Shown piece after piece: positions 34,031 through 62,891 of a DNA stretch of 64,000 nt. Under the pieces are notes generated by a model. The model searched no databases. It was not told the origin of the DNA and saw only the letters and a program-made list of their open reading frames with translations. Origin of the DNA: Blastobasis lacticolella (Eukaryota; Arthropoda; Insecta; Lepidoptera; Blastobasidae); the NCBI GenBank assembly GCA_905147135.1, contig LR990067.1, positions 7,874,001-7,938,000 on the forward strand, read 5' to 3'. Each line of letters begins with the position of its first letter. The stretch's first letter is position 1. The translations under genes were made by a program, and so were the position numbers.

Positions 34031-34594
34031 AGCAATAAACATCCAGTGGTAGAACTCTTGTGAAGCCTGAATACGGCGGATAGCTGGACTTTAGGTACAC
34101 TAACAATATTTTTAAAGTCGTAGAGCTAATAGATGCAGGTCGTATAACTCGGTCATAGAATGGGATTGGAAATAGCAGTAATGCAAATGCGAAGTCAGCC
34201 AGCGTAGAATATTTACGGTTGAGGTCTATGTCCAGTTTTGATGTCCAATTTATGATGATGACACCTCTTTGTTAACGATGGTAGCCAGGAGCCTACAATT
34301 AGGCAAACGTGGTAGTTGAATTATGTAACGGGTAATTATTATGACACTATGAAATAATGTAGCACCTATCAGTGCAAGAATTTTCAAAATCGACACAGTT
34401 ATTTCCGAGAAAACCCCCAACATACAAACTCAGCAACGTACAAACTTTCCCTCTTTATAATATTAGTAAGATAGACTATAGCCATACCCTTCACCCAACA
34501 GAAATACAACGTCAGAAACGTACAACCTTCCCTTCTTTATAACACTAGTATTAATACACATGAGTATACCCTAACCGTACCCTTAACCCAACAG

Positions 34595-36162
34595 AATACG
34601 AACGCGAGCGCGCCAGGGTCCGCGCCTCAGCCCCCGGCGGGTACGTCCCGGCCGCGCCCCCCGCCCCCCAGAAGATCGACTACAACCTCTACCGGGAGAA
34701 GCGGGAACGGGAGGAGCGGGAACGCCGGGAAGAGCGGGAGAGGCGCCAGCAACACCCCCTCCACCGGTCCGGGCAGCCGCGACAGCCCCAACAGCCCCAC
34801 AGACCGCCGCACACGGCTACCAAACCGCCCTGGCCACATGCGAAGCCTCCGCACAAGCCGCATGAGCATCGACATCATAGACCCCCGGCCGCCGTGCCGG
34901 CCCAGCCAGCCACGCAACCGGCGGCCCCGGAACCGGCCCGGACACGGCCGCCGTCGCTGTTTTCCCCGGAGAATGCCACGGCCCCGGCCGCAGCCGCCGC
35001 GGCGCCTAGGAGAACGGCCCCGGCTAGACCGAAAGAGAGACCGCCTAGCCCGAGAAGGCGACCAGATTTGACGGCCACAGCCACCGCTACAGTCCGAGAG
35101 ATGCAACCTCCGGCGATACTGTCGCCGTTCTCGTCGCCACCACCGGCGCTGGTAACTGTACCTGCTGCCATGCCGTCGGCTTCGGTACCTTCGCAGCCTC
35201 GCCCGAGGCAGAGACACCACTCCAATTCCGAGCCAGAGTTGATCCCGGTCGTGAAGAAGCTAGAAGAACAGCCAGGCTTCGAAAACGTTGCGAGGGAAAA
35301 TCGCAGCGCCGGTTCTAGTTCTAGTAGTTCAAGGCCGCGGCCCGACCAGCGGCCTGAGAGGCGACCGGAGCCCGCTAGAGCCCTGAACGGGATAGAAACA
35401 GACCCCACGCTAGTGTCGAATTTGCTGAAGGAGAGTCTAGCGAAGCCTGTGCCTATTACGGCCCCGGTGGAGAGGCCGGAGCCGGTGAGGCGAGAGATCG
35501 CCCCCGAGCCCCCCCGGCCGGACCCCCCTGCCCCCCCGGTGGCCCCCCCTGCTCCCATGGCCCCACCCCAGGCCGAAGAGCAACCCGACCACGCGAAACA
35601 CAAAAAGGAGAAGAAAAAGAAGGAGAAACACAAGCACAAAGATCGCGACAAGTCGAAGGAGGAGCGCAAGAAGCATAAGAAGGACAAGGAGCGAGAGAAG
35701 AAGAAGGAGGCTAGTCCTGTCGCTGTGGCGCCTCCTCCAATAATGGAGTCCCTGGACGGGCCGCTCAGGATCACGATCCCTCGTGAAAAGCTGTCCGCGA
35801 GCCCCGGACTCAAGATCAAGATCCCGAAAGAGCGCTTGGCCGCGCCCCCGCCGCCTCCCCACCAGCAGGCGTCGTCGCTGAAGATCAAGATCTCGAAGGA
35901 GGTGCTGGAGACTTCGCGCAAGCGGCCCGGTGTCGGCTCCCCCGGTGGCCCGGCGAAGCTTCCCCGCAAGGTAGGACCCCCCCCGCCGCCTGCCCCCCTA
36001 CCGTACTATATGGTGAGGCCGCCCCCGCCTCTGTACTACGCCATGGATGCGTACTACGCCATGCCGGGGTATGGGATGCCGGTGCCGATGTTTGCGGCGC
36101 CGCCCCCGCCGCCGTTGCCAGCAGCGCCGCCGCCGCCGGTGCCACCGCCGCCGCCAGAGTAG
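34595..36162 (+). CDS. CycT: Cyclin T, last coding exon (8)
   Basis: About 521 codons completing E292 and ending at TAG. In order: a charged Arg/Glu coiled segment (YREKREREERERREERER, about 310-330), a His-rich stretch (PHAKPPHKPHEHRHHRPP, about 370-390), Ala/Pro-rich sequence, an EPELIPVVKKLEEQPGF segment, a Lys/His-rich block at about 624-664, three repeats of the form L-x-I-x-I-x-[KR]-E-x-L at about 682, 697 and 720, and a Pro-rich, Tyr/Met-containing C terminus. The His-rich region of animal CycT1 promotes condensation with the RNA polymerase II tail; a similar role here is inference. High GC content creates long antisense frames that are not genes. An in-frame CGCAAG|GTAGGA near 35970 could act as an alternative donor. 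Confidence 0.93.
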
Positions 36163-54371: not shown

Positions 54372-57301
54372 CCTTTTTTGCAATTAAGCCATAAACCAAT
54401 AGAAGTTTACATGAAACATAGGATTTTATACTTACTACGCTTTCTAAGTGGAAAGCATTCTAACAAGTGACATTTATAAGTTAATTTTTAAAGCCCAGAC
54501 TGGTATTTTTATTTTTATATTCCAAATGCATTTTTTTTTCATGTCTGTGTTAACAACGGCATTATGAAGATTGGAAAATGGATGGGTTCTACATTTTGCT
54601 ATTACTCAAATAGTTGTATTAAAACAGTTTATGCTTTATTTTTGACTATTTTTAATATTTTTAGTTTAAATAACAATTTATAGATATTATCATTATTAAT
54701 GTCAAAAATGCCGTTGAGTCATCAAAAGTTAGATATTTAGTAGTTTTTGCTATGAAGTATATAATTTATATTTTTTTTAAGTCCATTTAGATAGCACAAA
54801 GAAAGAAACAAGATAGTTACTCTCTACCGCACAACTTACTACACTCGCGAGCAAGATAATCGACTCACCCATATTTTTCCATAAACGCTTATATTTTCGT
54901 TATAGTCCTTGTCAATTAGGTATACTTCACTTCGACACTAACGGGCCCGCCTATCTAATATCTCAGTAGTTCACTTTGTTTCTTTTTAATAATATTTTAA
55001 ATCAGTTTTCGTTCGAAATTACTGAGATAAAAATCTCGTCTAGCGATAATTAGAGATACACTCATTACACGTTAGTTCGGGAGTTTTCGTCCAATATTGA
55101 TGATGATAATAACAATAATAATAATGCATTTGTTAAGCGAAAGTTCAAGAATCGAAGATGCAGAAAACTTAAAGACAACATTAATCATACAAACAAACAA
55201 ATTTAGATCCATGAAACGTTATCAGCGAAAAAACTACCACAGAACTGGCTAATTTAGGAAATTGACCAGCTCCTTCACACAAAAAAGGAAATTTATCCAT
55301 ACAACTATACCATTTGTCACTGGGCCTGCCAGAACAGCTGTTTTCTAAAGTAAACAATATTTAATCGTAGTTTATAATACACATAAAACTATATAATACA
55401 CCGAACTCAACTATGTTACATTTCCCTTTTATAAATAATTACACATGTTTGTTGTTAGAGCTTCTAACCCATTTTCCAGCGATTTATCCATTGAACTAAT
55501 TAAAAACAACGTATACTAAAAATGGTTAACGCACGAAACGCCAACCCTGGGAAGCTTGACCAAGACCTTTATCATTCCTAAAGTCGAAGGTCACTTGCAA
55601 CAAGGTCTATTTTCCATTGCAATGACATTCTGGCAGTTGACAGTCTCGACCTTAACGACATGTTGGTTACACGGGAATTTTCGTCAAAACTAGGAGGCAA
55701 TTTCTTGTTCTGACTGTATATTTGTCAAACAGTGGCCCATCACGGAACAATACCTATCGAATTGCAATTTAATACGCTCCGCATAAGACTCAAATTGGCA
55801 CAGCAAATAAAAAGTAGTGTCATTTTTTTTTGCTACGCCAATTTCAGAATTATGCGGAAACAATTAAGTCGCAAATCTATCGCACTCACTCGCAATGGGG
55901 GCTCTGTGAGGCCTAGCAGGACCACATAAGCCAGGCAGATGTAAAACATCGAAATTAAGTATTACAACCACGCAAGGCGACGATGGACATGATGGCGACA
56001 TAGCGTGAAAATAGACGCGCGAAAATAATTTATTTTGCGCGATTATGTCAATAATTTATGACACAAAAAGAACATTCTGACCAAAACTTTTAAAAAGTCT
56101 GGTATTTTCTTTCGGCTACTATTCATACTGCAATTTATTAAAGTAAATGCCAATTTTCACAAAAAAATATATATATTTTGAACGAGATTTTGAAAGGAAA
56201 AATTTAAAATATTCTAATGTGTTTTTTTACCATCAGCCCCTTGTTACCAAAAGTAGCAATGCGCCTATTGGAACCAAATATTCCTGATGGACGCTAGACT
56301 AACCTAGAAATATTGGTACATGTTACTTTTCTTACCATTGGGTCACACCATTGCTCAAATGAACACAAAGTCCCAATAGGTCGCAGTATGGCTCGAGTTA
56401 TGGAATGGGGACTGAACTAGGGAGACGCCTGGCTTCGCACGGGTGTCATTTAAAAAAAAGAGGTGAAAATGTACAAAAGCCTTCCGTGAAAAGTTTAATA
56501 GCTGAAGGTGAAAACCGCATCAAAATCCGTTGCGTGGATTAGGAGGAGCTAACCGATATACAGACAGACGCGGAAATGTATTCCTTCTTCTTTATTATAT
56601 ACTATGAAAGAATTGTTGAAACTAGTCTACTGCCGAATCAAATGGGGCTGATAGACGTATTTTTGCTTACCAGGTGGCGCCACTGGGCTTGGTCAAAGAT
56701 TTTGGATATAGACCACAGATGGAGCCTCTACCTATAGCGAATGTACACTGCCAATCCGTCACAACTGTATATCATGAACTCAATGTTAAACAAAAAGCTA
56801 GAACATTAGGTGACAAAGGCCACAAAATTTTACAACAGCAGTGGTTATGGAGGGATATTTGACAACTTACAGCCGTCCCTTTTGGACACGTTATATGCAC
56901 TATTAAAAAAGGGAACAAACTATAGACTGTGACTTCAGCTGTGAGTAGGCTCCATCTATGTCCAAAATCTTTGATCTTGGTACGGTCTTGTCACTGTCAA
57001 AATGACACCTGTCAACTTTGATTCTGACGAACTGACAGAATGATCAAAAACTAACTTCCAGGGTCCGCGTCCGTCGTCACACAAGGATTTGTTTTACATA
57101 AACAAAATTGTATGTATTTTACTACATTCACAGCCACATAAAACATACAAAAAGCTTGGTATGTGGACCGTCCATGTGGAATACAAATACATTGTTAGAT
57201 TCATTGTGTCTTATTGAATCTGTAAATACTATGGAAGGCGAAATTTGTGTCTATTTGACTAATGTAATAAACCATAATTGACAGTAATTAAATTAAAAAA
57301 A

Positions 57302-57620
57302 TATGCTTGCACAATTCACACAGCGCCATCTAGCCCAAAAGTGTTATGGGTGCAAGACAGCTGGTAAACAACTTATATATTTTTAAATATACAGAGGATG
57401 TTACATAATATATGTGAATATGAAGCTGTGAACTGGATGGAGTGCTAAACGTATTAAAACGATAGGTACAATTATTTCTGTCATACGAGGAATAGTTGTA
57501 CCCATCGTTTTCATACGTTCAGCACGCCATCCAGTTCACGGCTTCATACATATGTTATGAAACACGCTGTATACTTATTATATGTATAACACCCAGATTT
57601 CTTCATAAAATTATCAGTAA
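57302..57620 (-). mobile_element. SINE family C tail split by a long-hairpin MITE
   Basis: ACAGCGCCATCTAGCCC and GGTAAACAACTTATATA are the complement of the SINE C tail and resume after the insertion as TATACTTATTATATGTATAA. The MITE (57390-57571) has arms of about 75 bp: GAAGCTGTGAACTGGATGGA mirrored by CCATCCAGTTCACGGCTTC. Confidence 0.75.
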
Positions 57621-59108
57621 AAGTGTAAGTGTTTTGTAAAATTGTAATGTATATAAGTAATTACCACAAAACCTTACAATATATCGTTTCCACATAGACG
57701 GCTAAGATTAAATAAATTAACCATTTTGGGGGTGACAAAAATATAAACATAATGACGTATGGTGATGGCTAAATTTTCTGTTTCAAATAACAATTTTAAA
57801 TACACACAATTACAGCAAGTTTGCTAACACAATGGAGATGTAGGAGAATAAACAGCCTTACTTTAAATCTCCAATGAGTGTAATAATTGATATAGTCTTA
57901 CAATGATATTGGTGCAAGGTTTACAAGTACCTATCGGGCATACCCACAAACCATATGAGAGTATACTGATCTCTAAACTATAATTTTAATGGTATATTGA
58001 TCTCCAAACTATAATTATAACAGTATACTGGTCTAAAAACGATAATTTTAACAGTATGCTGATCTCGAAACTATACTTTCCCAGTTTTTTAGAAATTACA
58101 TGTTTCAGATATTAATAATATTGACAGTTGGTCTTTTATCATGTAAAATATAGCTTGATTTTTATATATCAAAACACCAGAACAAGAATATCCTAATCTA
58201 TTGGTGTTTAGTAGTGAAAATAAGTAGCTATGACATTATATAGTATTTCAATATAACCAAATACAATATTTTAATTTGTGAACCGGACCAAGCTATATTT
58301 TATGAACTCCACGGCATCCATAAGATGGATGGATTTTAGAAATAGTGATATTGTATTAGTATTGATAGCAAATTTAAGCAAATAAATAGGAGATGCAGTT
58401 TGATCGGTTCACGGAACAACGGGCAAAAAAGAAAACCGGTACATTACAGAAATAAACGTAAAGATTCGCTACACAGTAAAATTTAAAACAACTATGTCTA
58501 CAAACAAAGTACAGATACCTTAAATACCTTAATATAATTCCTTGTAAATTCATTTCTTAAATTTCATACCTTTAAACTTACAAATTAGAATGTGTTAATT
58601 TTTAATTTACAATACAATATTCCTTTAAAAAACATCCCCAAAATGGTTCTAAGCTAACAATGGAAAATAACTTAAGATATTCGCTTTTTTATTCATTAAA
58701 TTTTAGGGTCAATAAGTTACTTTCTCAAAGTGTTTCCCGCAAAGATCCAAACTTTTACCGACACTAACAAATCAAATAAAACCTACATCTGTTTCAAAAG
58801 AACTGCAAATTTACATGAGAAAAACTGGAATAATTATCCCTATAGAAAAAGAACTACAAACTAACCATAATCATAATATCATACAACTCTAATCCAACGA
58901 TCACATTTGTTTTTTGTATTTTTTAAAAATTAAAACAAAAAGTTATATTATTTACATGCACGACAATTTAACAGGGGGCGGTATAAAAAGGGAAACAAAA
59001 AATAAAAATTAAACATAACATCGTGTAGTAATAAGTAAACATAGGAGAACACAGTAACGGCGAGAAACACTTCCTTTCACGTTATAAGTCCGGCATTTAG
59101 TCCCTGGG

Positions 59109-60803
59109 CTAGAAAGCTAGGAGCATGGGCATAGATTTGACTTCTTTATCGGTGGCCTGGGCAACACCCATATCACTTTGGTCGTTGAAATCTGTGGGAC
59201 TCTTCTCATCTTTAGTCTCACTTGTATCTGTAGAATTACTCGTATCAGACGTGCTAGCCAAAGTTTCATTTGTGTTATCACTTTTAGTTGAATTTGCATC
59301 AGCTTCTGTAGTTTTCGATTCTGGAATTTCAGAAATATCTGAAACGCTAGTTTCAGGCGTACTGGCGACTGTTTCAGAGTTTTCAGCGGTTACGATGTCA
59401 GGTTGATCTGTTTTATCGGTGCTTGTTCCTGATGCGTCGGTATTGGCTTTAGCAGTGATTTTGGCTACAATAGCGGTTAAATTTGCGACTTTATTTTGAG
59501 TTTTGGTTGTCTCATTTTTGTTCGTACCACTCTCGACATTTTTGGTGACATCGTCGTTTGTGTCTTTAGAAACATCACCAGCGTTTAGTTCAACATTTTC
59601 ATCAGCCTTTACATTATTCGTTGCACTTTCACCAACACTAATTTCCGATTCTTCTACAATTTTGTCGTAATTTTGAACTTCAACATTGTTATCAGGACTA
59701 ACATCACTTTTTTCCGCCACCTCTTCGACAACCTCCATGTTAGTAACAACCGTATCTGTCTCTAAACCAGCACTAGAACTCACATCACTAAACGCTGTCT
59801 CTTTACTGATCGCTAAGAAATCGTCATCCCTCGTGATCATGTCTATTGCGTCATTGAATTTGCTATCATTATCATCATTGTCGCACACCGTGTTAATAAC
59901 TTTCAGGGAGGAGAGGTCGATTTTCTTATGCACCAATATTGGGGTACTCTTCCCGCCGCTTACTATTTGAATTGTGTTGTAATTGCTTATTGTCTCACTG
60001 GATAAAGTCGTAGCTACGGTTATGACACCTCCGTTGCTATTCGCTGGCAAAGTCACGTTTGCAGCCGTATCTGAATTGGCCGCTTTATTTCGGATTAGCT
60101 GTAGTTTTCCAGCGTTCTTCGAGAAGTTAGGAAACGGAGCCCTATTCCTTTTACGTGGACGATCATACGCTAGAGGTGCTTGGTTCTTCACATTCTTCTT
60201 GCATTTCGACTTATGACAATGCTGCTTGAATAGCAAATGCTGTGCCTCTTCCTCCAAAGCTCTAGCCTTTTCCTTCGCCAGCGGATCCTTCTTCGGAACA
60301 CTCGCGACAGATATATTATTTAACTCCAGATTGATTTGTTGTCCCACAGTCAGTGGTAATTTCGCATCTTTGTTGGTCTCGCTGCCAAATTTAGCGTAGC
60401 TGACCTTGGTGACCTTATCTAGACCCTTCGAAACGCCGGCCTTATCACTGATCGACACTAGACTGTACCCGTCCACTTTACCCGCATCGGAACTTGTCGC
60501 TTCGGTTTCTTCTGTGGCGTCCGACAGCCGCCTAGCCGTGTCGGACGCGAGTCGCAGCGCTTTCTGTCGGAGAGCGTCGGCCTTCTGTCGCGCCGTCTCC
60601 GCCACATGTCGGACCGTGTCCGCTGCCTGCCTCGCCGTGTCGGCCGCGTGTCGGGACTCCGACACGTGTCGGCACGTGTCCTTGTGCCGAGCGTCCGACG
60701 TTGGTCGGGTCGCGTCCTTGTTTCGGGTGTTGTCGGGCTGTCGGGGTCGCGTGTCGGACACGTGTCGGGCCGGGCCGGCGGGCGGGGGGTCTGCGGGCGG
60801 CTG
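59109..60803 (-). CDS. E(Pc): 564-codon open frame directly after the E(Pc) TGA (readthrough extension candidate)
   Basis: The frame is open from the codon after TGA to a TAG and is the same frame as the upstream E(Pc) coding sequence. No ATG occurs in the first 321 codons, and no strong acceptor is seen just after the TGA. It starts Pro-rich, then has a 21-bp repeat encoding heptads such as RHAADTA, RQAADTV and RHVAETA (60549-60653). Next come a basic/Cys-His segment (LLFKQHCHKSKCKKN), a bipartite-like nuclear signal (RPRKRNR), an IQIVSGGKSTPILVHKK segment, and a long acidic Ser/Thr/Glu/Asp-rich tail ending KSMPMLLAF. I recognise no domain. Continuous coding over 1.7 kb in AT-rich DNA argues against chance. 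Alternatives: an unseen alternative exon joining after the TGA, or a separate gene starting with a non-ATG codon. Confidence 0.65.
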   Translation of the reverse strand, partial: QPPADPPPAGPARHVSDTRPRQPDNTRNKDATRPTSDARHKDTCRHVSESRHAADTARQAADTVRHVAETARQKADALRQKALRLASDTARRLSDATEETEATSSDAGKVDGYSLVSISDKAGVSKGLDKVTKVSYAKFGSETNKDAKLPLTVGQQINLELNNISVASVPKKDPLAKEKARALEEEAQHLLFKQHCHKSKCKKNVKNQAPLAYDRPRKRNRAPFPNFSKNAGKLQLIRNKAANSDTAANVTLPANSNGGVITVATTLSSETISNYNTIQIVSGGKSTPILVHKKIDLSSLKVINTVCDNDDNDSKFNDAIDMITRDDDFLAISKETAFSDVSSSAGLETDTVVTNMEVVEEVAEKSDVSPDNNVEVQNYDKIVEESEISVGESATNNVKADENVELNAGDVSKDTNDDVTKNVESGTNKNETTKTQNKVANLTAIVAKITAKANTDASGTSTDKTDQPDIVTAENSETVASTPETSVSDISEIPESKTTEADANSTKSDNTNETLASTSDTSNSTDTSETKDEKSPTDFNDQSDMGVAQATDKEVKSMPMLLAF

Positions 60804-60936
60804 TCACGTGACCTCCATGGGTACGGTGTCGGCGGGCCGTCGGCGGACGGCTGCGTTGGTCGTCTGGTCGTCGTCGGCGACGTCCATTGTGGTCGTGTCG
60901 TTGGCGGACGTCGTCGCTACGGCGTCAGCGATCTCG
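60804..60936 (-). CDS. E(Pc): Enhancer of Polycomb homologue, last exon up to the TGA
   Basis: Acceptor TTGTCCCACAG. The first base completes a Ser codon with the previous exon (phase 2). It encodes SEIADAVATTSANDTTTMDV, then a short Asp/Arg-rich stretch and ADTVPMEVT, stop TGA. Vertebrate EPC proteins end in a near-identical DNTVAMEVT; this, with the preceding exons, is the basis of the call. E(Pc)/EPC is a core subunit of the Tip60/NuA4 acetyltransferase complex in the nucleus; its conserved EPcA region, nearer the N terminus, is outside the window. The TGA is followed by CAG, the UGA-C context known to be leaky. Confidence 0.75.
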
Positions 60937-61385
60937 CTGTGGGACAAGGGGTAGGGGGTTAGGCTCGAGTTTGATATGTTTGAATGTCATGTAAGACTTT
61001 TTGGAAACACAGTGGTTGTTATAAATTCGCTAGCACTTAACCTTATGGTGTTTTAATGATTATTTACAGGACCTGATGTCCGCCAATTTGTTGATGGCCC
61101 GATTGAATTGTAATTGGATCGCCACCGCGGCTTAATGGTAGTTTTACCCGTTTTTGGTTCTCTGCTACAATTATAACTATTGCGAACTATTTACAATTTA
61201 ATCAAGCCAAGTAAATTAGCGGACTCGAGGCCTTGACAGTTAACCTCATGTATGCGTGTGTGAGTGCGCGCGTGCGTGTCCGTATAAATGGTTTAGTGTG
61301 TGCGTGTGTGTGAGTATGTATAAACACTTTTGAAAAAATTACATAAACACAGACCGTAGACATTCTCAAACAACCATTCACTCAC

Positions 61386-61614
61386 CTCCTTACCACCGCC
61401 TGGCCATGCCCATGCCCGTGGCCATGGCCCACCCTGGCCGGCACCGTGGCATGTGGTGGGTGCGTGTGCGGGTGGGGGTGGGGTGGGGCTGGGCGCGGCT
61501 GTGCCAACAACCTGGCTGCGGCCCGGGCCTTCAATTGAGCGGCGGCCGAGAGGGCTAAAGCTTGCACGCTGGCTGGGAGAGCTGCCCCGCCGGTTATGGC
61601 TATCTTTTGGCCGC
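61386..61614 (-). CDS. E(Pc): E(Pc) homologue, penultimate exon
   Basis: Acceptor AATTTCAG, donor AGGAG|GTGAGT. It completes a Gly codon and adds 75 codons plus two bases: GQKIAITGGAALPASVQALA, Ala-rich helix LSAAAQLKARAAARLLAQ, then His-rich repeats (PHPHPHTHPPH and GHGHGHGHG). LPASVQALAL-AAAQ resembles the vertebrate EPC stretch VPSSALKLAAAANCQ that precedes the C terminus. A competing donor GTG|GTAAGG eight bases upstream would change phase and break the join to the last exon. Confidence 0.7.
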
Positions 61615-62891
61615 CTGAAATTGGAAATTGTTTGTTTAGAATACAAAAGCATTAAGCGGACATATGGAGTAAGGGGTCAGCTAATTAGTTGTAGGACTGT
61701 ATTCAATACTCAATACACAAAAGTATGTTTTGGCCGCCTGGAATGGAAAATATAAAGTTTATGATACAATATGCAAAAGTATTATTTGCCTGCAACGTGA
61801 TTTGCGTGCAAGTTAAGAACGCAAAAGTATTTTATTTGTTTATCAAAACTTTATGCACAAAAAGTATATAAACTATATAAAAATAACCTTATCTATTAGT
61901 CAACCGGGATAAAACAAGCCTGAGAAAGTATTGTATAGTAGTAAGTTATTATATTCGGATGTCTCACAGCTTACGGCAATAAGATATGTGTAATAGCAAA
62001 CTTCTATCAGCCATTTATGATCTATGATATTATATAATATTTATAAAAAATTGTAATCTTGGCGCCAATGTCCCGGATGTACTCACTAAGTATAACTTAA
62101 TCCACAGATAGCCAAAAACGGATCCTTTTCAGACGTAGACCGAACGAAAAATCAAAAAGCCTGACAAACTACATACATGCATATTTTTCAAAACTCGGTT
62201 TCATTTATTAAAGCAATAAAGCAGCCTCTTTACTGCAGCGCCTGCGTGGCAGTCGGAACACCATCCTAAAGATGATAGCCAATAGGCTCGACTGCCCTAT
62301 CCAAAGGCATTGGATAGAGTTAGCTATAGGCCTCAAATAGTGTTACCTACAAAGTAATCTTACTAATGTTACTAACATAACATATAAGTACAATTGTTAC
62401 TAATATAATACTAACAAGTTATGGATCTATGGTCTGAAATAAATATATTTAAATTTTAATTTAATTTAATATTGATTTCAATCAAAGTTAACAAGTAACA
62501 ACCACCTGGTTTTCAAAAGGAGACCGCATGAAAATCGGCCCCGCCGTTAGAAAAGCATGGTGTCATATACATATGACAAATGTATAACACGCCCCGTTTT
62601 ACACCGGGAGTTAAAATCAATGGGTAATACATTCGTGAGATAATTTTTAAAAATGTTACTTGAATAATAACATCTCGCATGTCTACACAACGTTTAGTGT
62701 GCAAAGTTCATCAGCTGATTACACCAAGTGTCAATGACCTCTCGGTCAGCCGGCTGGTCATTGACACAGAGACATTTTTAGACAGCTTTTTTCATATAAA
62801 TTGAATCAGTCATCTCATGCTTCTCTTGAAATATATTACATTATGATTGTAAGACCCTACCCACACTCCAATAACAACAAAACACACCAAC
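61615..62891 (-). other. E(Pc) intron
   Basis: AT-rich, no exon or clear transposon seen. Confidence 0.5.

Follow-up and report, generated by a model that had tools for sequence, protein, structure and literature searches.

A 564-codon open reading frame behind the UGA stop codon of Enhancer of Polycomb in Blastobasis lacticolella, a candidate for stop codon readthrough

Described readthrough systems and the Blastobasis locus

The closest described systems come from Drosophila and Anopheles, in which readthrough genes are abundant (Jungreis, Kellis et al.; excerpts of PMC5100048). These genes share with the locus analyzed here an old first stop codon, a UGA followed by C, a coding signature between the first and second stops, and a fast-evolving tail. 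The fly and mosquito set rests on whole-genome alignment, whereas the present case is built on one lepidopteran genome and two annotated relatives, and the extension described here lies at the long end of the length range. Readthrough tails in Drosophila are reported to span 4 to more than 1,000 aa, and many of the longer ones have features of disorder (excerpts of PMC4528330). An earlier note on this DNA considered an extension of the present size on a chromatin regulator unusual; unusual it is, but because long disordered tails have been reported in Drosophila (PMC4528330, same excerpts) it is not without precedent. The 240 aa tail of Drosophila caps, described in those excerpts, resembles the present case in being a C-terminal extension behind a stop codon with features of disorder; however, the protein extended here is a chromatin-complex scaffold, the extension has 564 residues, and the likeness is one of description. 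In plant viruses, the readthrough context CARYYA has been defined, all six bases of which are reported to be important (excerpts of PMC4132726); the CAGCCG that follows the UGA in our sequence agrees with it at five of the six bases, the final base being G instead of A. For Lepidoptera, the authors of a genome paper state that they are unaware of a documented frequency of readthrough in the order (excerpts of PMC10917498).

The window analyzed here, by which we mean the whole stretch of 64,000 nucleotides from contig LR990067.1 of B. lacticolella, contains on its minus strand a gene that exon matches, an EPL1 domain, and protein matches identify as Enhancer of Polycomb, E(Pc). Enhancer of Polycomb, a member of the EPL1 family, is a subunit of the Tip60/NuA4 complex. 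The present gene shares the EPL1 domain and the MEVT end with its family and differs in a possible second isoform with a long tail. A literature search pairing the full name of the gene with the phrase "stop codon readthrough" found no paper, and pairing that name with the bare word "readthrough" gave nothing relevant as judged by titles and the beginnings of abstracts. PMC5100048, PMC13170385, and PMC3840789 do not use the word "polycomb" in their main texts; a fly or mosquito E(Pc) gene may nevertheless have been listed as a readthrough gene before. The E(Pc) extension would be a striking case of a known phenomenon, the readthrough tails of insects. If true, a core histone-acetyltransferase scaffold would carry a very long tail made by readthrough, and the efficiency of termination could therefore tune chromatin regulation.

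Gene structure and the age of the first stop

The exons of E(Pc) were matched by a human EPC1 query, and a model made by joining these exons by hand matches the EPL1 domain (PF10513) with 30.7 bits against a cut-off of 25.4 (E value 5.8e-07). The E_Pc_C domain (PF06752) matched neither this exon model nor the B. lacticolella genome, and 14 of 14 control genomes likewise gave no match. In the protein search, all of the best 43 matches that carry a name (39 of 43) are lepidopteran, and beetles follow far behind; together with the EPL1 domain, these matches bear out the original assignment of the gene. Splice sites were scored with an approximate consensus matrix. The penultimate coding exon (61386–61614, minus strand; acceptor 3.6, donor 7.4) encodes a lepidopteran E(Pc)-like sequence, QLKAR...LLAQPRP, and ends in phase 2 at the donor AG|GTGAGT. 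The last exon starts at 60936 behind the acceptor CCCACAG|C (score 4.2), in phase with the exon before it. The part of it that belongs to the first open reading frame (60807–60936, minus strand) reads EIADAV...VRRRPADTVPMEVT and is followed by TGA at 60804–60806 and then by 564 codons that run to a TAG at 59109–59111. Its final 12 residues are identical at a mean of 9.1 of 12 positions to those of 32 lepidopteran sequences ending in MEVT, and the family ending TVPMEVT directly before the TGA, with CAG as the next codon, stands in the sequence as the earlier note had read it.

Elsewhere in the gene, at approximately position 84032–84518 if the window is extended (L003:32–518), an exon (SGQTVVTLGEAKLLLERKDD...) is accompanied by two diverged copies in the following intron, which are pairwise 76–91% alike at the DNA level and spaced by 178 and 231 bases. 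Judged by this likeness, the copies are a local tandem exon duplication near the EPL1 region.

To place the first stop, we compared the C-termini of 165 distinct E(Pc) proteins, made up of the best 120 of 2,443 and the best 120 of 203 matches. MEVT is the exact C-terminal end of 91 of these 165 listed homologs, including beetle and bee proteins, so that neither a recent nonsense mutation nor a fault in the assembly is a likely source of the stop. Human EPC1 ends in TVAMEVT. We treated 45 of the listed sequences as lepidopteran (41 by name, with several sequences for some species), and 32 of them end in MEVT. Among the 13 that do not, P0030 from Leptosia nina and P0063, one of the Leptidea sinapis records, run past this point, three (P0002, P0019, and P0021) terminate in QVT or PEVT, and seven further sequences terminate or diverge elsewhere. 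In the Cydia amplana sequence (P0027), DTPMEV is followed by a switch to LLLVMYRL, unlike the lepidopteran sequences that end in MEVT. The E(Pc) proteins of Diptera have a greater length and frequently terminate in NR, and the six that were checked (P0121, P0125, P0143, P0059, P0089, and P0097) lack MEVT; the ancestral C-terminal end seems to have been lost or replaced in Diptera. The conserved position of the first stop that marks readthrough genes is found here at the protein level, in the 32 of 45 lepidopteran and 91 of 165 total listed sequences, and we judge this TGA to mark the ancestral C-terminus and do not regard it as a young nonsense change.

The context of this stop is UGA with C at position +4 (TGA CAG CCG), which qualifies as leaky. 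Excerpts of PMC5100048 compare groups of readthrough genes in fly and mosquito; UGA is the first stop in 61–76% and C the base after it in 49–63%, and these frequencies support the suggestion that the present stop is in a leaky context. The accompanying claim of a structure-forming region failed. The 14-base palindrome CGGACACGTGTCCG said to follow the TGA has zero matches in the window, its 10-base core GACACGTGTC being present at 60757–60766 and 60661–60670, and the 123 bases from the TGA onward fold no better than their shuffles (z 0.06; 99 of 200 shuffles fold equally well), with no unusually stable RNA structure just past the stop in the predicted fold. A palindrome or stem that stimulates readthrough was therefore dropped.

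Coding signal and composition of the second open frame

The second open frame (59112–60803, minus strand) is an in-frame extension of 564 codons closed by the second in-frame stop. Between 59109 and 60803, the other two frames of the strand hold 26 and 66 stops, and frame 0 holds none before the final TAG. Its first ATG is codon 322, so that both the openness over 564 codons and the lack of ATG in codons 1–321 that had been pointed out are confirmed. To estimate how often such a frame would be open by chance, we generated 20,000 sequences per block with a first-order Markov model of matching composition. None of the 20,000 simulations was open over codons 116–321 and none over codons 322–564, and a chance origin of the open frame over codons 116–564 is very unlikely. 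Over codons 1–115, 4,210 of 20,000 were open, and since this block is GC-rich and often open by chance, its openness says little. Codons 1–89 are GC-rich, repeat-like DNA with zero stops in all three frames of the strand, and the early part of the extension holds diverged direct repeats of 36 bases at spacings of 57, 42, and 114 bases, all multiples of three.

Period-3 power is 3.5 over codons 1–115 (reached by 9 of 1,000 shuffles), 6.7 over codons 116–321 (0 of 1,000; shuffle maximum 4.2), and 25.8 over codons 322–564 (0 of 1,000; shuffle maximum 4.3), compared with 0.85 in the 3′ UTR (451 of 1,000) and 2.0 in the last intron (52 of 1,000). Frame-specific coding bias was scored with a position-specific dinucleotide model trained either on 1,500 codons, from 15 exons of E(Pc) together with a long open reading frame of the plus strand that we took as coding, or on 967 codons of E(Pc) alone, each compared with 5,000 composition-matched shuffles. 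With the 1,500-codon model, the score of frame 0 was matched by 401 of 5,000 shuffles for codons 1–20, 406 for 1–40, 57 for 1–60, 5 for 41–80, 131 for 81–115, 0 for 1–115, 0 for 116–194, 1 for 195–321, and 0 for 322–564; the corresponding numbers for the E(Pc)-only model are 870, 1,019, 254, 28, 66, 5, 0, 1, and 8. As a positive control, the portion of the last exon that belongs to the first open reading frame was matched by 6 and 2 of 5,000 shuffles in the two models, and none of 33 and none of 26 windows of the 3′ UTR passed the 1% level. Within the extension, the frame score peaks at codons 116–194. For codons 322–564, the model slightly favors frame 1 over frame 0 (0.013 vs. −0.039); we nevertheless favor frame 0 there because of the period of three and the absence of stops. 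These single-genome tests reveal a coding signature between the first and second stops, as in readthrough genes. The coding character ascribed to the frame is thus supported by frame-0 bias and period 3, but with a weak signal over codons 1–40: it is firm from approximately codon 41 onward and weak next to the stop.

By composition, the extension falls into distinct stretches. Residues 35–103 (60495–60701, minus strand) are rich in Ala and Arg and are predicted by single-sequence AlphaFold2 to form one long helix, with ten-residue pLDDT means of 66 to 90 over residues 41–100. Residues 116–230 (60114–60458, minus strand) form a Lys-rich basic block with a net charge of +13, and residues 322–564 (59112–59840, minus strand), the stretch in which period 3 is strongest, form an acidic Ser/Thr-rich tail that has a net charge of −33 and ends in SMPMLLAF. 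In the same structure prediction, 443 of 564 residues have a pLDDT below 50 (mean 43.7), and the extension is predicted to be mostly disordered except for the long helix at residues 35–103. No Pfam family matched it at E values up to 1, and neither did any of 5.8 billion proteins when the extension alone was the query (7,995 candidates scored; lengths of 310–987 eligible). Within the 577 million bases of its own genome, it matches only itself at E values up to 1.

Tails in relatives and routes into the extension

The two lepidopteran proteins that run past MEVT are pierid. In L. nina (P0030), ...TDTLPME is followed by CDPRGQ... and a tail of 334 residues that ends in PLPLLIF; in L. sinapis (P0063), ...NLPMEVT is followed by VVKSVS... 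and a tail of 289 residues, and a second record of this species (P0032) terminates at MEVT. The tails of these two proteins are alike, with a score of 104, which was reached by 0 of 500 shuffles and compares with 61 for the reversed sequence and 81 for the best of 388 other windows. The extension has a modest likeness to the Leptosia tail, with a score of 99 that no shuffle out of 500 reached and that compares with 77 for the reversed sequence and 95 for the best among 388 other windows. It has none to the Leptidea tail, for which the score of 57 was equaled by 228 of 500 shuffles and the reversed sequence gave 65. The extension and the Leptosia tail also have an LLxF end in common, for which the compositional expectation is approximately 7e-05 and which occurs in none of the others among the 165 listed proteins; the motif had been spotted before its test, which is therefore post hoc. 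A query with the full protein including the extension (lengths of 893–2,840 aa) found no further tailed lepidopteran protein among the best 120 of 203 matches. Taken together, the likeness of the pierid tails to each other, that of the Leptosia tail to the extension, and the LLxF end are suggestive of a shared tail that is old and evolves rapidly. Rapid divergence of readthrough tails in sequence and length has been reported in fly and mosquito (excerpts of PMC5100048).

In-frame readthrough of the UGA is in our view the most likely access to the extension, with a probability of roughly 0.7. Two coding regions would then follow each other in one frame of the E(Pc) mRNA. The majority of ribosomes would terminate at the old MEVT-UGA and yield ordinary E(Pc), and a fraction would let a near-cognate tRNA read the UGA, aided by the UGA-C-A-G context, and yield a second form of E(Pc) with a mostly disordered tail of 564 residues, in which a helical Ala/Arg stretch and a basic block would precede a long acidic Ser/Thr-rich end. 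Such a tail could alter the contacts of Tip60/NuA4 or offer an extra contact surface in the second isoform. From the readthrough interpretation of the earlier note, the gene, its ending, the coding frame, and the UGA-C context stand and the palindrome with its structure does not; readthrough itself we infer. A broader version, which we put forward tentatively and hold to be somewhat less than an even bet, is that programmed readthrough of the E(Pc) UGA is old in Lepidoptera and gives a second isoform of the Tip60/NuA4 scaffold with a disordered tail of several hundred residues, which in B. lacticolella is first basic and then acidic, the frame having been kept open from Pieridae to the present species while its sequence drifted fast, at a stop position common to beetles and bees.

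The main rival is alternative splicing, by which an isoform would skip the TGA and the extension would be an ordinary alternative 3′ coding part. Possible routes lead from a donor at 61394 (phase 0; score 4.3) to right-phase acceptors at 60221 (1.0) or 60116 (2.0), from the real donor at 61386 (phase 2) to acceptors in phase with it at 60381 (−0.9) or 59997 (0.0), or start at a GT within the codons for MEVT. The weak coding bias over codons 1–40 and the two annotated pierid proteins that join across the stop would fit such an isoform. Yet these acceptors would leave codons 1–140 or more untranslated, although codons 41–115 and 116–194 are coding-like; the GT sites before the TGA score only −1.5 and −1.9 against 7.4 for the real donor; and the best acceptor between the TGA and 60350, within 450 bases, scores −0.9 (60381) against 4.2 for the real one. 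In their protein letters, moreover, the pierid models leave the first open reading frame after ME in Leptosia and after MEVT in Leptidea, and exits at different residues would fit artefacts of predictors that dodge a stop better than one conserved intron; both models seem to avoid this stop and may be annotation errors. Splicing around the stop is disfavored on these grounds, and because weak acceptors that we take as real in E(Pc) reach down to −0.5 we go no further than this; it remains an unlikely but serious competitor.

Considerably less probable is a two-cistron mRNA or a separate gene, in which the extension would be started internally or from its own promoter. The AUG at codon 322 has a strongly periodic stretch behind it, and Rfam gives a weak IRES_c-myc match at 60668–60733 (14.5 bits against a cut-off of 40) that is probably due to chance. 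Both open reading frames, however, lie in one frame and, by the splice sites found, in one exon, and the ATG-free codons 41–321 carry coding signal; as there is no ATG in codons 1–321, a downstream AUG start cannot explain the signal there. Less credible again is that the frame is a relic or an accident, such as a once-coding tail that a young nonsense mutation truncated, or a repeat rich in GC: codons 1–89 do have a repeat-like character without stops in any frame, but chance is a very unlikely cause of the openness of codons 116–564, and a stop position common to 91 of the 165 listed E(Pc) proteins, beetles and bees among them, is not young. Selenocysteine insertion, for which the codon would be the right one, has a negligible chance and was dropped, in agreement with the earlier note, since none of the three Rfam matches at E values up to 5 in 57000–61700 belongs to a SECIS family and the Lepidoptera examined in excerpts of PMC2500217 lack selenoproteins.

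Two other features of the window lie outside the extension. An open frame of 532 aa on the plus strand (34564–36162), rich in Pro with runs of Lys, His, and Glu, has no match in Pfam; we take it to resemble the C-terminal part of cyclin T. At 57419–57548, an inverted repeat with arms of 61 bases that are 89% complementary across a gap of 8 bases can form a hairpin, and it coincides with a weak match to Rfam mir-9436 far below the cut-off.
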